Source: a virus
Reading direction: 5' to 3' (one strand)
Virus record (IMG/VR): IMGVR_UViG_3300042307_001412
Location: 27,134-91,133 of that record
DNA length: 64,000 nt
A model generated the notes under the pieces. It saw only the letters and a list, made by a program, of their open reading frames with translations, was not told the DNA's origin and did no database searches. The position numbers were made by a program, and so were the translations under genes. Shown piece by piece: positions 21,357 through 39,675 of the stretch (its first letter is position 1; each line of letters starts with the position of its first letter).

Positions 21357-21668
21357 TTAGTCTTTTTTGGTTCCTTGCCAGCTCAGTGAGTTGATGATTC
21401 TCGACTCCTCATGCAGTGCCATTGCGTACTCCCCAATGACGGTGCCCGTAGAATCGTCCACAATCGCATTGTGGAGCCTTGTAGCGAGCCCTTTCCATAG
21501 TTCTATTAGTTCTGCCGCATTTGTGGCGTCATCATGCATTACGCACTTGCTCACAGGGTTTCGTATCTTCTCCAAAAACTCTGGGTAATCAACTTTTGCC
21601 TTTGGTTTTACCTTTTTTGCCATTCCGATTGACTTTCCGGTGGCTGTAACTACTTTTGGTTCCGTCAT
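21357..21668 (-). CDS. Hypothetical basic protein
   Basis: 103 residues: a Lys-rich N-terminus (KSIGMAKKVKPKAKVDYPEF) and a helical body (NAAELIELWKGLATRLHNAI). Pairs with 20965-21354. No family recognised. Confidence 0.75.
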   Translation of the reverse strand: MTEPKVVTATGKSIGMAKKVKPKAKVDYPEFLEKIRNPVSKCVMHDDATNAAELIELWKGLATRLHNAIVDDSTGTVIGEYAMALHEESRIINSLSWQGTKKD

Positions 21669-21715: not shown

Positions 21716-22561
21716 TTAATCATACTTTGAGCCAGATTTCCGGTGCGCCCATAGGCCGTGGAAAAAGCGTTGTTCAGGCCTGAATCCGCCAAGTACGGCG
21801 TGTGCCATGAGGAACAGGTCAACAACGATTACATCGCCCTCATTCCACTCGTGAACCTGTCGAATATCCTCGTTGTTGTGTATTTGTTTTGTAAAGAACA
21901 ATGACAACTCAAGAAATCGTGCATCTTCGTAATCTGAAGGCCGCCTTCCATCAAAGCTGTGCAAGTAATAGGTCTCTCTATCGTATTTAAAAAGGGCGCT
22001 GAGTCTTAGGGCGTTTCTGCCAGACGGTTCGTACATCTCAACGGCATCATGGAGTGCCGGAATCTGTTGGCGCCCTGGCTCATCGAGCGCCCAACCGTAA
22101 AACGCTGCCACTTTGCATTTTTTGAGAAAATCGGCATCTTCTTCACTGAGCATGTCGTATACATCAGAGATGTTCACAAACAAGGTATTCCCAACACCGG
22201 TTTCGCACTTGAACTTCTCCATATTCCAAGTCGCCCCGACTGCAGGGTTGTGGTGACCCATATGCTCAAGGTGCCAGGACAAAAGTATTTCATCTTTTTT
22301 AATGTTGTGCCTGTTGTGCATATTCATTGAGTGTGAGTGGTTTTCTTCATATGACCAAATTTGCTCACCAAATTCTGACGAGTTTGGATACCAGCCCATT
22401 CTGTCGCCGAATATCTTTGTTAAAAGCAGCTGTTCGGAGCGAGAGATACTAGTGCCACGAAAAACAATCAGTGCGTTCCTCTTGAAAGCATCTACGTAGC
22501 CATCAATGTTCTGAATGATTGACTCAAATGAATCAACAATGACTGGTTCAACAATTTTCAT
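21716..22561 (-). CDS. TauD/TfdA-like 2-oxoglutarate/Fe(II) oxygenase
   Basis: 281 residues. The iron-binding H-x-E is visible as WHLEHMGH (His97, Glu99), the distal ligand as His254 in LMAHAVLGG, and the 2-oxoglutarate-binding Arg as Arg265 in PEQRFFHGLW. This matches the TauD/clavaminate-synthase group, which hydroxylates small molecules using oxygen and 2-oxoglutarate. It lies 30 bp downstream of two SGNH-hydrolase genes and near a carbamoyltransferase, so it may create the hydroxyl that is then carbamoylated. Substrate unknown. Confidence 0.85.
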   Translation of the reverse strand: MKIVEPVIVDSFESIIQNIDGYVDAFKRNALIVFRGTSISRSEQLLLTKIFGDRMGWYPNSSEFGEQIWSYEENHSHSMNMHNRHNIKKDEILLSWHLEHMGHHNPAVGATWNMEKFKCETGVGNTLFVNISDVYDMLSEEDADFLKKCKVAAFYGWALDEPGRQQIPALHDAVEMYEPSGRNALRLSALFKYDRETYYLHSFDGRRPSDYEDARFLELSLFFTKQIHNNEDIRQVHEWNEGDVIVVDLFLMAHAVLGGFRPEQRFFHGLWAHRKSGSKYD

Positions 22562-22590
22562 ACTCGCAATAATCCTATTCCTTCTGTCAG

Positions 22591-23571
22591 CTACAACGAT
22601 TCAACCAAATTCTTAGCCCAGTGCCAATGAGCATGTGAGCCAAAGTGACCCATGGGTCTGTTGTCCTCAAAATGAAGGGTTGACTTCTTTAATCTATCCA
22701 GTTCGACCTCTTCGATAATCAGGTCAAACTTTCTATGCTTCTTGGGTACCAAATATCTGTCATAACCATAATTGAAGCATCCATTAGACCTGTTTTTTAG
22801 GTCAACACAGCACTCCCCCGACCACATGTTATGTGAGTAATTTCCAAGGATTTCATTTGTCTCATAATCGACATAGGGGTTATACAGCTGAAGATAGTTC
22901 ACTGTGTATTTGTTCTTTACGTAAGATTTAAAGTTCTCTAAAAATTTGTACTCTAAATACTCACTTGTGTCTGTCCACATTTGCCAGCGCAGCACAATGT
23001 CGTTCGCCGCACACATTGCCTCCAACTCGCTCAGCGCTACTACCGACTGTGTCGATGCTTGTTCATTCGTGTAGGAGTTGTCGGTCATTCCCACATGGGT
23101 ATGGCCATCGACTATCTCACCAGATTCCGTCGTATGTTGGTATCTGGTAATTTCTGGGAAATTGCAGAGAACTATTTCAGGGGCACCGTAGGTTCGGATG
23201 TATGTGGCCAGCATCCTTACCTGAAGGGCAATTGACGAACCAGGTTTTCCGAGGTTCACCACGTCGTCAATTCCAGTTAATTCTCCAACCACCGAAGGCC
23301 ATATGAAGTTTTCCGGGACACCAACACCGAGAGTGTGCGAACATCCAAGGGCTATAATCCCCGTATCTTCATGAAAATCTTTTGACCTAAAATTGTTTAT
23401 GTTAAAAGAGTAACTAAGAAGTTCCGGAGAAGCATATTCGCTCTTTAGGTTTGATGTATACGATGTATACGGAGAATAGCATTTCTCAAAAGATACGTGT
23501 TTGAACCCGGCACTCTCCCATGTCATTAACGGCTGTGGCGGTTCATGTTCTGCTTTGCTATTTATCATCAT
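22591..23571 (-). CDS. SGNH/GDSL hydrolase-like protein (copy A)
   Basis: 326 residues. Block I is GCSHTLGVG (nucleophile Ser) near residue 84, block II the glycine of NLGKPGSSIALQ near 115, block III the Asn of VLCNFPEI near 140; a His-rich C-terminus (HFGSHAHWHWA) provides the catalytic His. SGNH enzymes remove or transfer acyl groups. The ATG overlaps the TGA of copy B (ATGATGA). Copies A and B share most of their length, so this is a tandem duplication. Confidence 0.8.
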   Translation of the reverse strand: MMINSKAEHEPPQPLMTWESAGFKHVSFEKCYSPYTSYTSNLKSEYASPELLSYSFNINNFRSKDFHEDTGIIALGCSHTLGVGVPENFIWPSVVGELTGIDDVVNLGKPGSSIALQVRMLATYIRTYGAPEIVLCNFPEITRYQHTTESGEIVDGHTHVGMTDNSYTNEQASTQSVVALSELEAMCAANDIVLRWQMWTDTSEYLEYKFLENFKSYVKNKYTVNYLQLYNPYVDYETNEILGNYSHNMWSGECCVDLKNRSNGCFNYGYDRYLVPKKHRKFDLIIEEVELDRLKKSTLHFEDNRPMGHFGSHAHWHWAKNLVESL

Positions 23572-24593
23572 AGTGAGTCGACTAGGTTTTTTGCCCAATG
23601 AAAATGGGCATGCGAGCCAAAATGAGCCACTGGTATAGTGCCCCTAGTATTCAAGGTCGATTTTTTTAATTTCTCTAGTTCATTTTTTTCAATAATTAAG
23701 TCGTGTTTTTGGTATTTTTTAGGGACCGAATACCTATCGTAACCATAATTGAAGCATCCGTTTGACCTCTTTCTCAAGTCACTACAGCACTCTTCTGGCC
23801 ATGAATCATGCGAGTAATCTCCGCAAATTTCATTTGTCTCGTAGTCAGTATACAAGTTGTGCATATGGAGATAATTTGCGGTGTACTTATTCTTTACGTA
23901 GGAGGTAAAGTTATTCAACAATTTATCTTCAAAATTTTCACCTGTGCCCGCCCACATTTGCCAGCGGAGTAAAATCCCGTTTGCATTACAGATTGCTTCT
24001 AAATCTCCAAGCGCCAATATGGATTGTGTCGATGCTTGCTCATTCGTATAAGAATTATCTGCCATACCCATGTAGGTGTTACCATCAACTATTTCTCCAG
24101 ATTCGGTTATATGTTGATACCTGACAATTTCTGGGAAATTGCAAAGAACCATTTTGGGAGCACCATAGGTTCTGACGTAAGTGGCCAACATTCTTACCTG
24201 AAGGGCAATTGACGAACCAGGTTTTCCGAGGTTCACCACGTCGTCAATTCCAGTTAGTTCTTTAACAAACGATGGCCATATGAGGTTTTCTGGAACACCG
24301 ACTCCGAATGTGTGCGAACACCCAAGTGTCACCGTGTTTGTGTTTTCATGGAAGTCTTTTGACCTAAAATTATGTATATTAAAAGAGTAACTAAGCAGTT
24401 CTGGCGACGCATATTCAGACTGGAAGTTTAACGTATAAGAGGTGCGCGGTGAGTCACGCTCCTCAAATGAAATATGCTTGAAACCGATGGTGTCCCATTT
24501 CGGTGAAGAAAATGGAGCGTTTTTGTCAAAATGCGATGGTTTCAATGGCGCACTAGACACCAAATTTTTTTTGTACTCCTGCCATGGGCTCAT
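23568..24593 (-). CDS. SGNH/GDSL hydrolase-like protein (copy B)
   Basis: 341 residues, paralogous to copy A: GCSHTFGVG, NLGKPGSSIALQ, LCNFPEI and the C-terminal HFGSHAHFHWA are all kept. A 64-bp stretch (24193-24256) is identical to copy A (23216-23279), pointing to gene conversion. Both copies lack a signal peptide, so they act inside the cell or in the virion. They may edit or transfer acyl/carbamoyl groups made by the neighbouring carbamoyltransferase; this is inference. Confidence 0.8.
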   Translation of the reverse strand: MSPWQEYKKNLVSSAPLKPSHFDKNAPFSSPKWDTIGFKHISFEERDSPRTSYTLNFQSEYASPELLSYSFNIHNFRSKDFHENTNTVTLGCSHTFGVGVPENLIWPSFVKELTGIDDVVNLGKPGSSIALQVRMLATYVRTYGAPKMVLCNFPEIVRYQHITESGEIVDGNTYMGMADNSYTNEQASTQSILALGDLEAICNANGILLRWQMWAGTGENFEDKLLNNFTSYVKNKYTANYLHMHNLYTDYETNEICGDYSHDSWPEECCSDLRKRSNGCFNYGYDRYSVPKKYQKHDLIIEKNELEKLKKSTLNTRGTIPVAHFGSHAHFHWAKNLVDSL

Positions 24594-24691
24594 GATGCTC
24601 TTTAGTATGTGAATCTGGATTTTTTTCCAAATGCACGTCTCCAGAGAATCCGGATTATTTTACGGAATTTTCTAACTTTCATACCGCTATC

Positions 24692-26125
24692 CTACATGCA
24701 GATATTTATAGTGGAATGTAACGAATTCCACTTTTTGATGTCTTCCACATCGTTTAGTAACGGCTGACCCTTTATATTTAGGCTTGTATTGAGAAGAACT
24801 GGAATGCCTGAGTATTTCTTCCATTTTTTTAGCAGCTCGTATAAACCAGGATGCTGTTCCTTGTTGACGGTTTGAACCCGTGATGTTCCGTCCTTATGGA
24901 CAACCGATGGGATTAGCTCTGGTTTCTTGCATTTAAATGCGTACTGCATATACGGGCTTGGCTGACTCATTTCAAACCACTCCGATGCATGTTCCTCCAT
25001 AATCACGGGGGCAAACGGGCGAAACAGTTCCCTTTCTTTTACGGTATTAACCAAGTCTTTGCACGAAGGGTCTCTTGGGTCGGCAAGAATGCTCCTGTTT
25101 CCTAGCGCACGTGGGCCATACTCGGCTCTTCCATTTGCGACTGCCGCAATCTTGTTGTTCACAAGCTGACTGAATATTGAATCAACCGGGTATTCTCCGG
25201 GGACTGTTTCCCCAAGATAGGGGCTCTTCCAATCAAGGTGTTTGCCGTATATTGCGGCCGCCGCACCAAGACTGCTTCCGGCATCACCTGGATTTGGCAT
25301 TATCCATACCTGATTGTAGATATCGAATAATTTCGTATTTGCCGAGCAGTTGAGTGCGCACCCACCCATGAATACCAAATTCTCTTTGCCTGTTTTTTTC
25401 TTTGCGAAGACCATGAATTCAATTAGTCTTTTTTCGTAGACGGCCTGAACGGCTGCTGCGATATGAAATTTATTCTGCTCTGTAGGAACTACAGAGAATC
25501 CCCCAACCCCGTAATGGAATATTTCTGTCTGCTCTTCGATTGTTGGGAATAACTCATTGATTTCAGAGAAGTAAATCTCGGGGTCCCCATATGCGGCCAT
25601 TCCCATCATTATGTACTCTTCTTCATTGGGTTTTAGTCCTATGTATTCAGTAAAGGCCGAGTAGAACAGGCCGAAGCTAAATGGGTAATTTCTGGAGTAA
25701 ACCTTTTTAATTGTTTTTCCATTCCCCGACCAGATACTGGTTGTTTCAAATTCCCCAATGGCATCAAGAACGACAATCACGGCATCTTCAAACGGGCTTG
25801 TGTAATACCCGGCACAAGCATGGGAGTAATGGTGTTTAAAGTTGGTAATTTTCGAGTCGGGGAAGTATTTTTTTACAGCAGAATAAGAAGAACCGTAGCC
25901 ACCAAACAGATTCATTCGCAATTTCTTTAGCCGTGGCTTTTCGTAGTATCCGATTGCGTCTGGCTTGCCGTACTTAAACGCCTCTTTTACTATCTCGTCG
26001 TTTAAGTGCCAATCATTTTTTATTTTGCTATATCTCTCAGAGTGTGAAGCAAAAAGAATCTCACCATTCTCGATAACGGAAATTGATGCATCGTGAGAGC
26101 AGGCGTTCACGCCAAATATAATCAC
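24692..26125 (-). CDS. NodU/CmcH-family O-carbamoyltransferase
   Basis: 477 residues. Family landmarks: GVNACSHDASISV at 4-16, KHHYSHACAGYY near 96-107, MGGCALNCSAN near 253-263, EYGPRALGNRS near 333-343 and FRPFAPVI near 368. These enzymes make carbamoyl-adenylate from carbamoyl phosphate and ATP and transfer the carbamoyl group to a hydroxyl (as in tobramycin, cephamycin and Nod factors). The C-terminus ends soon after LLNTSLNIKGQPLL, shorter than typical 530-600-residue members. ATGA overlap with 26122-26532. Confidence 0.9.
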   Translation of the reverse strand: MIIFGVNACSHDASISVIENGEILFASHSERYSKIKNDWHLNDEIVKEAFKYGKPDAIGYYEKPRLKKLRMNLFGGYGSSYSAVKKYFPDSKITNFKHHYSHACAGYYTSPFEDAVIVVLDAIGEFETTSIWSGNGKTIKKVYSRNYPFSFGLFYSAFTEYIGLKPNEEEYIMMGMAAYGDPEIYFSEINELFPTIEEQTEIFHYGVGGFSVVPTEQNKFHIAAAVQAVYEKRLIEFMVFAKKKTGKENLVFMGGCALNCSANTKLFDIYNQVWIMPNPGDAGSSLGAAAAIYGKHLDWKSPYLGETVPGEYPVDSIFSQLVNNKIAAVANGRAEYGPRALGNRSILADPRDPSCKDLVNTVKERELFRPFAPVIMEEHASEWFEMSQPSPYMQYAFKCKKPELIPSVVHKDGTSRVQTVNKEQHPGLYELLKKWKKYSGIPVLLNTSLNIKGQPLLNDVEDIKKWNSLHSTINICM

Positions 26126-26532
26126 TGGTTATCAGTATTTATTCCGACGACCGAGTACTTTCCGTGGCGCAGTGTCTCTGCGGCATACTCTGGGTTGAGG
26201 GTTTTTCGCCATCCGCCGATTGATTTCATGAGGACTCCAGGTCCACCGGTGGCACTGCACGTTTTAGATGCAATATCTTCGTATTTGGAGATGATATTAC
26301 CGATTTGTATCAGGGTGTGCTTGTCATCCATGTTTGATGGCTTTATGTAGAAGCGAAGGCCGCCAAACTTTTCCTTGACTTGGTAAATCTGGTAGTTCGG
26401 GTCCACTCTGGTCAGTTCTTTGTCGCAATCCAGGACAAGCTGATACCAGCCTTCATCGACGTCTATCGATTTCCAGTATTCAGGAACTATCTTCTTCTTG
26501 AGCTCCTCTATCTGTAGTTGCAGCTCATTCAT
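26122..26532 (-). CDS. Conserved phage hypothetical protein
   Basis: 136 residues. The central YQIYQVKEKFGGLRFYIKP and the following Cys-containing ASKTCSATGGPGVLMKS are a pattern I recognise from many phage and bacterial hypothetical proteins; the SG/AC end resembles a degenerate zinc-binding tail. Function unknown. First gene of the likely 26532-to-20965 transcription unit; ribosome site AAGGAG. Confidence 0.75.
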   Translation of the reverse strand: MNELQLQIEELKKKIVPEYWKSIDVDEGWYQLVLDCDKELTRVDPNYQIYQVKEKFGGLRFYIKPSNMDDKHTLIQIGNIISKYEDIASKTCSATGGPGVLMKSIGGWRKTLNPEYAAETLRHGKYSVVGINTDNQ

Positions 26533-27031: not shown

Positions 27032-27184
27032 TCATTTTGCATCTTCTTCCGGTGTTTGCTTGTCTTCGGTTTCTTCTAAATCTTCGTATGTTTCGTAAAC
27101 TTCAATAAGCGCATCGGTTCCATTTGTCATCCCAGGTTTTTCGAGGCTAATAAACCTGCGTACAAATTTACGCTTCTCATCCAC
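27032..27184 (-). CDS. Small acidic hypothetical protein
   Basis: 50 residues (VDEKRKFVRRFISLEKPGMT...) with an acidic tail (EDLEETEDKQTPEEDAK). The GTG at 27184 overlaps the TGA of gene 27177-27449, so it is translationally coupled. No family recognised. Confidence 0.7.
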   Translation of the reverse strand: MDEKRKFVRRFISLEKPGMTNGTDALIEVYETYEDLEETEDKQTPEEDAK

Positions 27185-39152: not shown

Positions 39153-39225
39153 GCGTCGGTGGCCAAATGGATAAGGCAACAGACTTCTAATCTGTAGACT
39201 GTAGGTTCGAGTCCTACCCGACGCG
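39153..39225 (+). tRNA. tRNA-Arg(TCT)
   Basis: Acceptor GCGTCGG/CCGACGC, anticodon loop CTTCTAA (TCT), T-arm GTAGG-TTCGAGT-CCTAC. First of five plus-strand tRNAs; no encoded CCA. Confidence 0.92.
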
Positions 39226-39230
39226 CACAG

Positions 39231-39306
39231 TGGCAAGTAGCTCAGTTGGCAGAGCAAGGGACTGTTAATCCCTGGGTCGTAGGTTCGAGCCCTACCTTGC
39301 CAGCCA
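39231..39306 (+). tRNA. tRNA-Asn(GTT)
   Basis: Acceptor TGGCAAG/CTTGCCA, loop CTGTTAA (GTT), T-arm GTAGG-TTCGAGC-CCTAC, encoded CCA. Confidence 0.93.
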
Positions 39307-39324
39307 CTATACTGACGATGGCCT

Positions 39325-39381
39325 CTTGCTAGAGGGCGTCATTAATATTTCTGTCGGTGCGCAGTTAGAGCGTCTAGCAAG
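39325..39381. repeat. Inverted repeat in the tRNA spacer
   Basis: CTTGCTAGA (39325-39333) and TCTAGCAAG (39373-39381) are perfect 9-bp arms around 39 nt, between tRNA-Asn and tRNA-Ser. It has an acceptor-like stem but no T-arm, so it may be a decayed tRNA or a processing hairpin. Confidence 0.45.
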
Positions 39382-39389
39382 CACTATTT

Positions 39390-39479
39390 GGAGCGATGGC
39401 AGAGAGGCTTATTGCACCTGTCTTGAAAACAGGAGTCCGTTTGCGCGGACCGGGGGTTCAAATCCCTCTCGCTCCTCCA
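39390..39479 (+). tRNA. tRNA-Ser(TGA)
   Basis: Class II tRNA: acceptor GGAGCGA/TCGCTCC, loop CTTGAAA (TGA), long variable arm, T-loop TTCAAAT, encoded CCA. Confidence 0.92.
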
Positions 39480-39498
39480 CTTATGTTACGCTTTTACG

Positions 39499-39574
39499 CA
39501 CGCAGTAGCATCAGGGGTAGAGCACCCGTGGAATCTAACGGGAGGTCTCTGGGTTCAATTCCCAGACTGCGTGT
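39499..39574 (+). tRNA. Atypical tRNA, anticodon loop of eight bases
   Basis: Acceptor CACGCAG/CTGCGTG, T-arm CTGGG-TTCAATT-CCCAG, D-arm GC(A)TC/GAGC with one extra base. The anticodon stem CCCGT/ACGGG closes an 8-nt loop (GGAATCTA) that has no T at position 33, so the identity cannot be assigned. Confidence 0.7.
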
Positions 39575-39578
39575 CTAA

Positions 39579-39650
39579 GCCCGTTTAGCTCAGTGGTAGA
39601 GCTCTTCACTTGTAATGAAGCGGTCCTCGGTTCAATCCCGAGAGCGGGCT
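39579..39650 (+). tRNA. tRNA-Thr(TGT)
   Basis: Acceptor GCCCGTT/AGCGGGC, loop CTTGTAA (TGT), T-arm CTCGG-TTCAATC-CCGAG. No encoded CCA. Confidence 0.93.
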
Positions 39651-39675
39651 CTAACTGGGGTAGAATTTAGCCCCT

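Follow-up and report, generated by a model that had tools for sequence, protein, structure and literature searches.

Four consecutive genes of a large, uncultured virus of bacteria encode an O-carbamoyltransferase (CT), two SGNH-fold proteins (SGNH1 and SGNH2) and a TauD-type Fe(II)/2-oxoglutarate (2OG) oxygenase (TauD). We infer that the substrate is a tail-fibre protein or a fibre glycan, which the virus would decorate by hydroxylation, O-carbamoylation and acyl editing, and we give this reading a probability of about 0.45. Editing of the virion or of glycans is suggested by the pairing of CT with SGNH genes in other viruses, by oxygenase islands located between tail-fibre genes, and by the occurrence of TauD homologues within these islands.

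The window, the stretch of 64,000 nucleotides that was analysed, corresponds to positions 27134–91133 of a 91,133-bp IMG/VR virus record (IMGVR_UViG_3300042307_001412). The sequence of this record is contained in a 172,519-bp parent record, G001, with 100% identity over all sequence compared. The four genes and their two neighbours, all on the minus strand, are listed in the order of transcription:

26122..26532, minus strand: 136-aa gene, function not assigned, just upstream of CT; syntenic anchor in loci L013 and L014
24692..26125, minus strand: CT, O-carbamoyltransferase of the TobZ/NodU/CmcH type, 477 aa, GTG start; assigned from PF16861/PF02543 and phrog_1601
23568..24593, minus strand: SGNH1, SGNH-fold protein, 341 aa; assigned from family A1 residues, AlphaFold/Foldseek and a profile search against the PDB
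22591..23571, minus strand: SGNH2, SGNH-fold protein, tandem duplicate of SGNH1; assigned from its identity to SGNH1
21716..22561, minus strand: TauD, TauD-type Fe(II)/2OG oxygenase, 281 aa; assigned from PF02668, invariant motif residues and a TauD-fold model
21357..21668, minus strand: 103-aa gene, downstream of TauD after a 47-nt gap; from the ORF list, with no Pfam or PHROG family

The initial annotation had described the four genes as consecutive, and all four open reading frames are indeed present in this arrangement. The 136-aa gene overlaps the start of CT by 4 nt (GTGA), the ATG of SGNH2 overlaps the stop of SGNH1 by 4 nt (ATGA), and the remaining gaps in the row are of 98 and 29 nt. 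These overlaps and short gaps suit co-transcription of the row, possibly together with the 103-aa gene. A promoter scan gave no excess over shuffles. The SGNH2 gene was correctly recognized in the earlier reading, but its start is most likely ATG 23571 and not TTG 23598, the end of the ORF call. Elsewhere in the window, a cluster of four tRNAs (Arg, Asn, Ser, Thr) was observed at 39153–39651.

The genes are real and under purifying selection, with dN/dS values of 0.09 for CT and 0.11 for TauD against a diverged copy in locus L018, and of 0.13 between SGNH1 and SGNH2. Synonymous divergence from L018 is 0.3–0.5 for CT, for TauD and for the next two genes downstream, and 0.02–0.06 for the SGNH pair. 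The segment carrying the pair (window 22591–24593) thus appears to have been swapped recently by recombination relative to CT and TauD.

CT matches PF16861 (E = 4e-54), PF02543 (E = 3e-39) and phrog_1601, 'Nol-like carbamoyltransferase' (E = 8e-110), in agreement with the NodU/CmcH assignment made at the outset; its relatives in the PDB are the novobiocin CT, GdmN and TobZ. With CT alone as query, 152 relatives were found in contigs of uncultured viruses, and deduplication of the best 80 of these (at least 61% identical) left 50 distinct loci. CT has the Kae1-like N-domain (HD, HHxxHA, D..GE) and the YrdC-like C-domain motifs of the TobZ/NodU family. Nearly all positions of the motifs H11-D12, HHxxHA, D121..GE, GRAEYGPRALGNRS, RPFAP, RVQ and NTSLN are kept in 46–50 of the 50 members. 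As the catalytic motifs are preserved, ATP- and carbamoyl-phosphate-dependent O-carbamoylation is the expected activity. The closest cellular CT found, from Streptomyces samsunensis (contig L104), is only 43% identical, and a cellular origin of the viral CT was rejected on this ground. It is accompanied by an SGNH-like protein (labelled from its sequence), a P4H-type (prolyl-hydroxylase-type) oxygenase, a radical-SAM-like protein, an aminotransferase and an SDR, in what looks like a natural-product cluster.

SGNH1 and SGNH2 share 72% amino-acid identity over 326 aligned codons. Neither matched Pfam, PHROG or NCBIfam. The initial identification of two SGNH proteins was nevertheless borne out, as a 50-sequence profile of the family matches solved GDSL esterases (9otv, E = 1.8e-4; 4rw0, E = 8e-4) and the AlphaFold model of SGNH1 (pLDDT 77, pTM 0.79) is SGNH/GDSL-like. 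The top natural matches of this model in Foldseek are SGNH/GDSL hydrolases, led by CgnD, with which the match is loose (TMq 0.33–0.38). Among the family A1 residues, G91, S93, R158 and D286 are invariant and G97, G126 and H324 nearly so. The usual aspartate of the C-terminal DxxH motif is absent from the family, and the invariant Asp286, located 38 residues before His324, may replace it. The retention of Ser93 and His324, with the DxxH aspartate missing and an aspartate elsewhere, points to a variant esterase, acyltransferase or peptidase. At L128:807–5704 (77807–82704 of G001), a third gene of this SGNH family directly follows that of a 1335-aa protein, in which linkers rich in Thr, a C-terminal membrane helix and an apparent signal peptide were noted.

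The assignment of TauD as a 2OG oxygenase was upheld by its match to PF02668 (E = 2.4e-19) and by its model (pLDDT 82), which has the double-stranded β-helix of the TauD fold and matches AAD-1, PlaO1 and TauD in Foldseek with E values around 1e-14. The metal triad H97-x-E99...H254 and the 2OG-binding R265 are invariant in seven homologues. No direct relatives of TauD were found among isolated phages.

An SGNH gene immediately adjoins CT in 29 of the 50 distinct viral CT loci, on the same strand in 28 of them. About 3% would be expected by chance, given the 26 SGNH genes and roughly 1.3 genes per kb in a set of ten large CT-bearing records totalling about 1.3 Mb, every one of which contains the SGNH family. 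As the loci were chosen by CT only, the enrichment in SGNH is not a selection effect. Within seven genes of CT, SGNH genes are found in 32/50 loci, P4H-type 2OG oxygenases also in 32/50, and one or the other in 47/50. CT and SGNH are thus the conserved core of a cassette. A frequent gene order is c6-c3-c3-glycosyltransferase-P4H-SGNH-CT-P4H-M23 peptidase; another, found in several loci, is TerS-TerL-SGNH-CT, which suggests late expression (the TerS, TerL and M23 labels were read from the sequences by eye). PF11397 GlcNAc transferases also occur within CT cassettes. In locus L090, CT and SGNH run into nucleotide-sugar and glycosyltransferase genes, with an epimerase at most 1.5 kb after CT, followed by a C-methyltransferase, two GT61 and an NTP-transferase-like gene.

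The exact four-gene set, singled out initially as a candidate for a new system, is not conserved in this way, because TauD is separable. The 136-aa gene marks an accessory-gene hotspot beside tRNA-Met. This hotspot, recognizable by the shared 136-aa gene, 152-aa gene, lysozyme-like gene and SSB, recurs in L013 and L014, where TauD is the only one of the four genes present and lies on the opposite strand. In genome G002, a CT-SGNH pair lies in a different part of the genome from the hotspot. In the 170-kb relative G011, which may be incomplete, a 60%-identical TauD was found but neither CT nor SGNH. The set was therefore rejected as a single conserved pathway: the solitary TauD of L013 and L014 and the distant CT-SGNH pair of G002 point to a lineage-specific assembly. 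The link between TauD and CT is confined to a lineage, whereas the theme of oxygenase, CT and SGNH is general.

The oxygenases of this virus are concentrated elsewhere. The parent genome encodes 12 P4H-type oxygenases at 34.5–54.2 kb (L096:14553 to L097:14189), in an island that also encodes a PF04488 glycosyltransferase, c3-family proteins (phrog_7084) and a fatty-acid desaturase, and that is bounded at 33.1 and 54.2 kb by Fn3-domain, adhesin-like tail proteins. Two HIPKTSG sulfotransferase-like proteins were also noticed in this island; the one scanned against Pfam gave no match. Equivalent islands lie between tail-fibre genes in G002, G005, G007, G010 and G011, and thus, with G001, in all six genomes inspected. 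The tail-fibre label rests here on repeat composition, Fn3 domains, homology between loci and position after baseplate-like genes, and not on experiment. An iterated profile search with TauD retrieved homologues only at the accessory hotspot and inside the islands of G002, G005 and G010. The island homologues are 31% identical, with the H-x-E...H...R residues invariant. Their location, the strongest evidence on the site of action of such oxygenases, groups them with fibre genes rather than with nucleotide metabolism. Collagen-like GPTGPTGATG repeats are present in fibres of G005, G007 and G010. No clear collagen-like GXY run was found in the fibres of G001, so that a substrate of this kind was rejected for the parent virus.

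Modification of DNA had to be tested because the demonstrated phage 5hmC carbamoyltransferase is likewise TobZ-like and has the same pair of domains, PF02543 and PF16861 (MetaGPA, eLife 2021, PMC8670742). The initial annotation, which placed phage DNA carbamoyltransferases among 'other types', does not hold on this point. A hydroxymethyl base, either pre-made or produced by the oxygenase, would be O-carbamoylated as in the 5-carbamoyloxymethylcytosine phages. ThyX is encoded next to or near CT in four of the 50 loci (L037, L043, L060, L094), in line with such a role. The MetaGPA enzymes are accompanied by a homologue of thymidylate synthase (PF00303) and by a dCMP deaminase (PMC8670742), whereas the partners here are SGNH and 2OG oxygenases, and PF00303 is absent from all 11 records searched (G000 and ten large related records, including the 172.5-kb parent). 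ThyX (PF02511) is absent from G001, and Tet_JBP (PF12851) is matched there only below threshold, within P4H-type genes. At the equivalents of TobZ 408, 421 and 423, positions inferred from spacing only, CT has V (49/50), G and R; the family G and R (50/50) are thus kept at two of the sites reported to differ in association with DNA modification, for which the text of the paper does not name the residues of the modified clade. The tests with PF00303, PF02511 and PF12851 gave no support for DNA modification in the parent virus, and the absence of the first two with a sub-threshold third makes it very improbable.

No described phage pathway with this set of enzymes was known to the initial annotation. 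The precedent that was found is indeed not from a phage: in crocagin biosynthesis in Chondromyces crocatus, the 2OG oxygenase CgnC, the esterase/protease CgnD and the carbamoyltransferase CgnI act on one peptide (PMC10070186). The same three enzyme classes are present here, and CgnD is the PDB fold closest to SGNH1. The product of the operon might accordingly be a small molecule or a short RiPP-like peptide, modified and released during infection, and the Streptomyces samsunensis genes that surround the closest bacterial CT would fit this as well. CgnD, however, has the DxxH aspartate that the present family lacks, and neither a precursor-peptide gene, CgnB/CgnE nor a methyltransferase was recognized among the ORFs of the operon. 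No precursor peptide was evident between the four genes and no exporter was noticed, and the genes, scattered across the genome, recur in the company of tail-fibre genes, so that such a product is distinctly unlikely. Still more improbable is an accumulation of unrelated cargo at the hotspot, without joint function. The solitary TauD of L013 and L014 and the recent exchange of the SGNH pair would fit such cargo; the adjacency of CT and SGNH in 29/50 loci, the 4-nt overlap of the SGNH genes and their uniform strand do not.

Parallels are also seen in isolated phages, where CT and oxygenase genes are neighbours. In cyanophage S-SSM7, a 2OG oxygenase is directly flanked by two CTs, and the three lie several genes past a tail-fibre gene and ahead of heptose genes. 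Pelagiphage HTVC008M, which like S-SSM7 is T4-like and encodes a Nol-like CT, also has 2OG-Fe(II) oxygenases beside it, and in both phages sugar genes are near. The CTs of isolated phages are at most 42% identical to the present one, and no SGNH of the present family was found in isolated phages with two members as queries. These neighbourhoods bear on the proposal that the cassette alters the host cell-surface polysaccharide during infection, for instance for superinfection exclusion; CT would carbamoylate a cell-wall glycan, and SGNH would acylate or deacylate it. The CT of S-SSM7 lies amid heptose and epimerase genes, that of HTVC008M is beside a UDP-glucose dehydrogenase, the L090 cassette joins nucleotide-sugar genes, and the third SGNH gene follows that of the 1335-aa protein with its apparent signal peptide and membrane helix. 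The oxygenase islands, however, are embedded in tail-fibre arrays and not in a polysaccharide locus, and no flippase or polymerase was noticed; action on the host surface is on the unlikely side. Phage S-SCSM1 resembles the present viruses by its many divergent PF13640-type oxygenases, 24 2OG-Fe(II) oxygenase genes in one genome, which were interpreted as host-metabolism genes (PMC9602691). In contrast, the islands described here lie between tail-fibre or adhesin genes in all six genomes inspected.

Decoration of fibres would proceed as follows. Hydroxyl groups would be supplied by the 2OG oxygenases, the 12 of the prolyl-hydroxylase type and the TauD-type enzyme. CT, with carbamoyl phosphate and ATP, would O-carbamoylate a hydroxyl group, and SGNH, with its Ser/His hydrolase fold, would attach or take off an acyl or ester group. 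Both would work on scaffolds of one kind, for which the likeliest candidate is a side chain of a protein, or a glycan made by the phage, that is exposed on tail fibres or adhesins. We infer the order of the reactions, the substrate, and the sharing of molecules by CT and SGNH with the island oxygenases. The hydroxylation and O-carbamoylation of a scaffold, as first proposed, remains sensible, but within the original range of targets (nucleotide, glycan, virion protein, small molecule) the comparative context shifts the emphasis towards tail fibres and glycans. Against the decoration of fibres stand the distance of about 75 kb between CT/SGNH/TauD and the island in this virus, the lack of clear collagen-like GXY in the G001 fibres, and the looseness of the CgnD match. 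In addition, TauD-fold enzymes of known substrate mostly act on small molecules.

To our knowledge, O-carbamoylation of a virion has not been reported. In a wider and rather doubtful scheme, phages, some of them bearing hallmarks of actinobacterial hosts, would hydroxylate their fibres, including collagen-like ones, by batteries of P4H enzymes, and CT, SGNH and GlcNAc transferases would then carbamoylate, acylate or glycosylate the hydroxyls. A pathway of post-translational modification of the virion, if true, would tune host recognition, and virion or glycan editing would tie several orphan phage families to this process.
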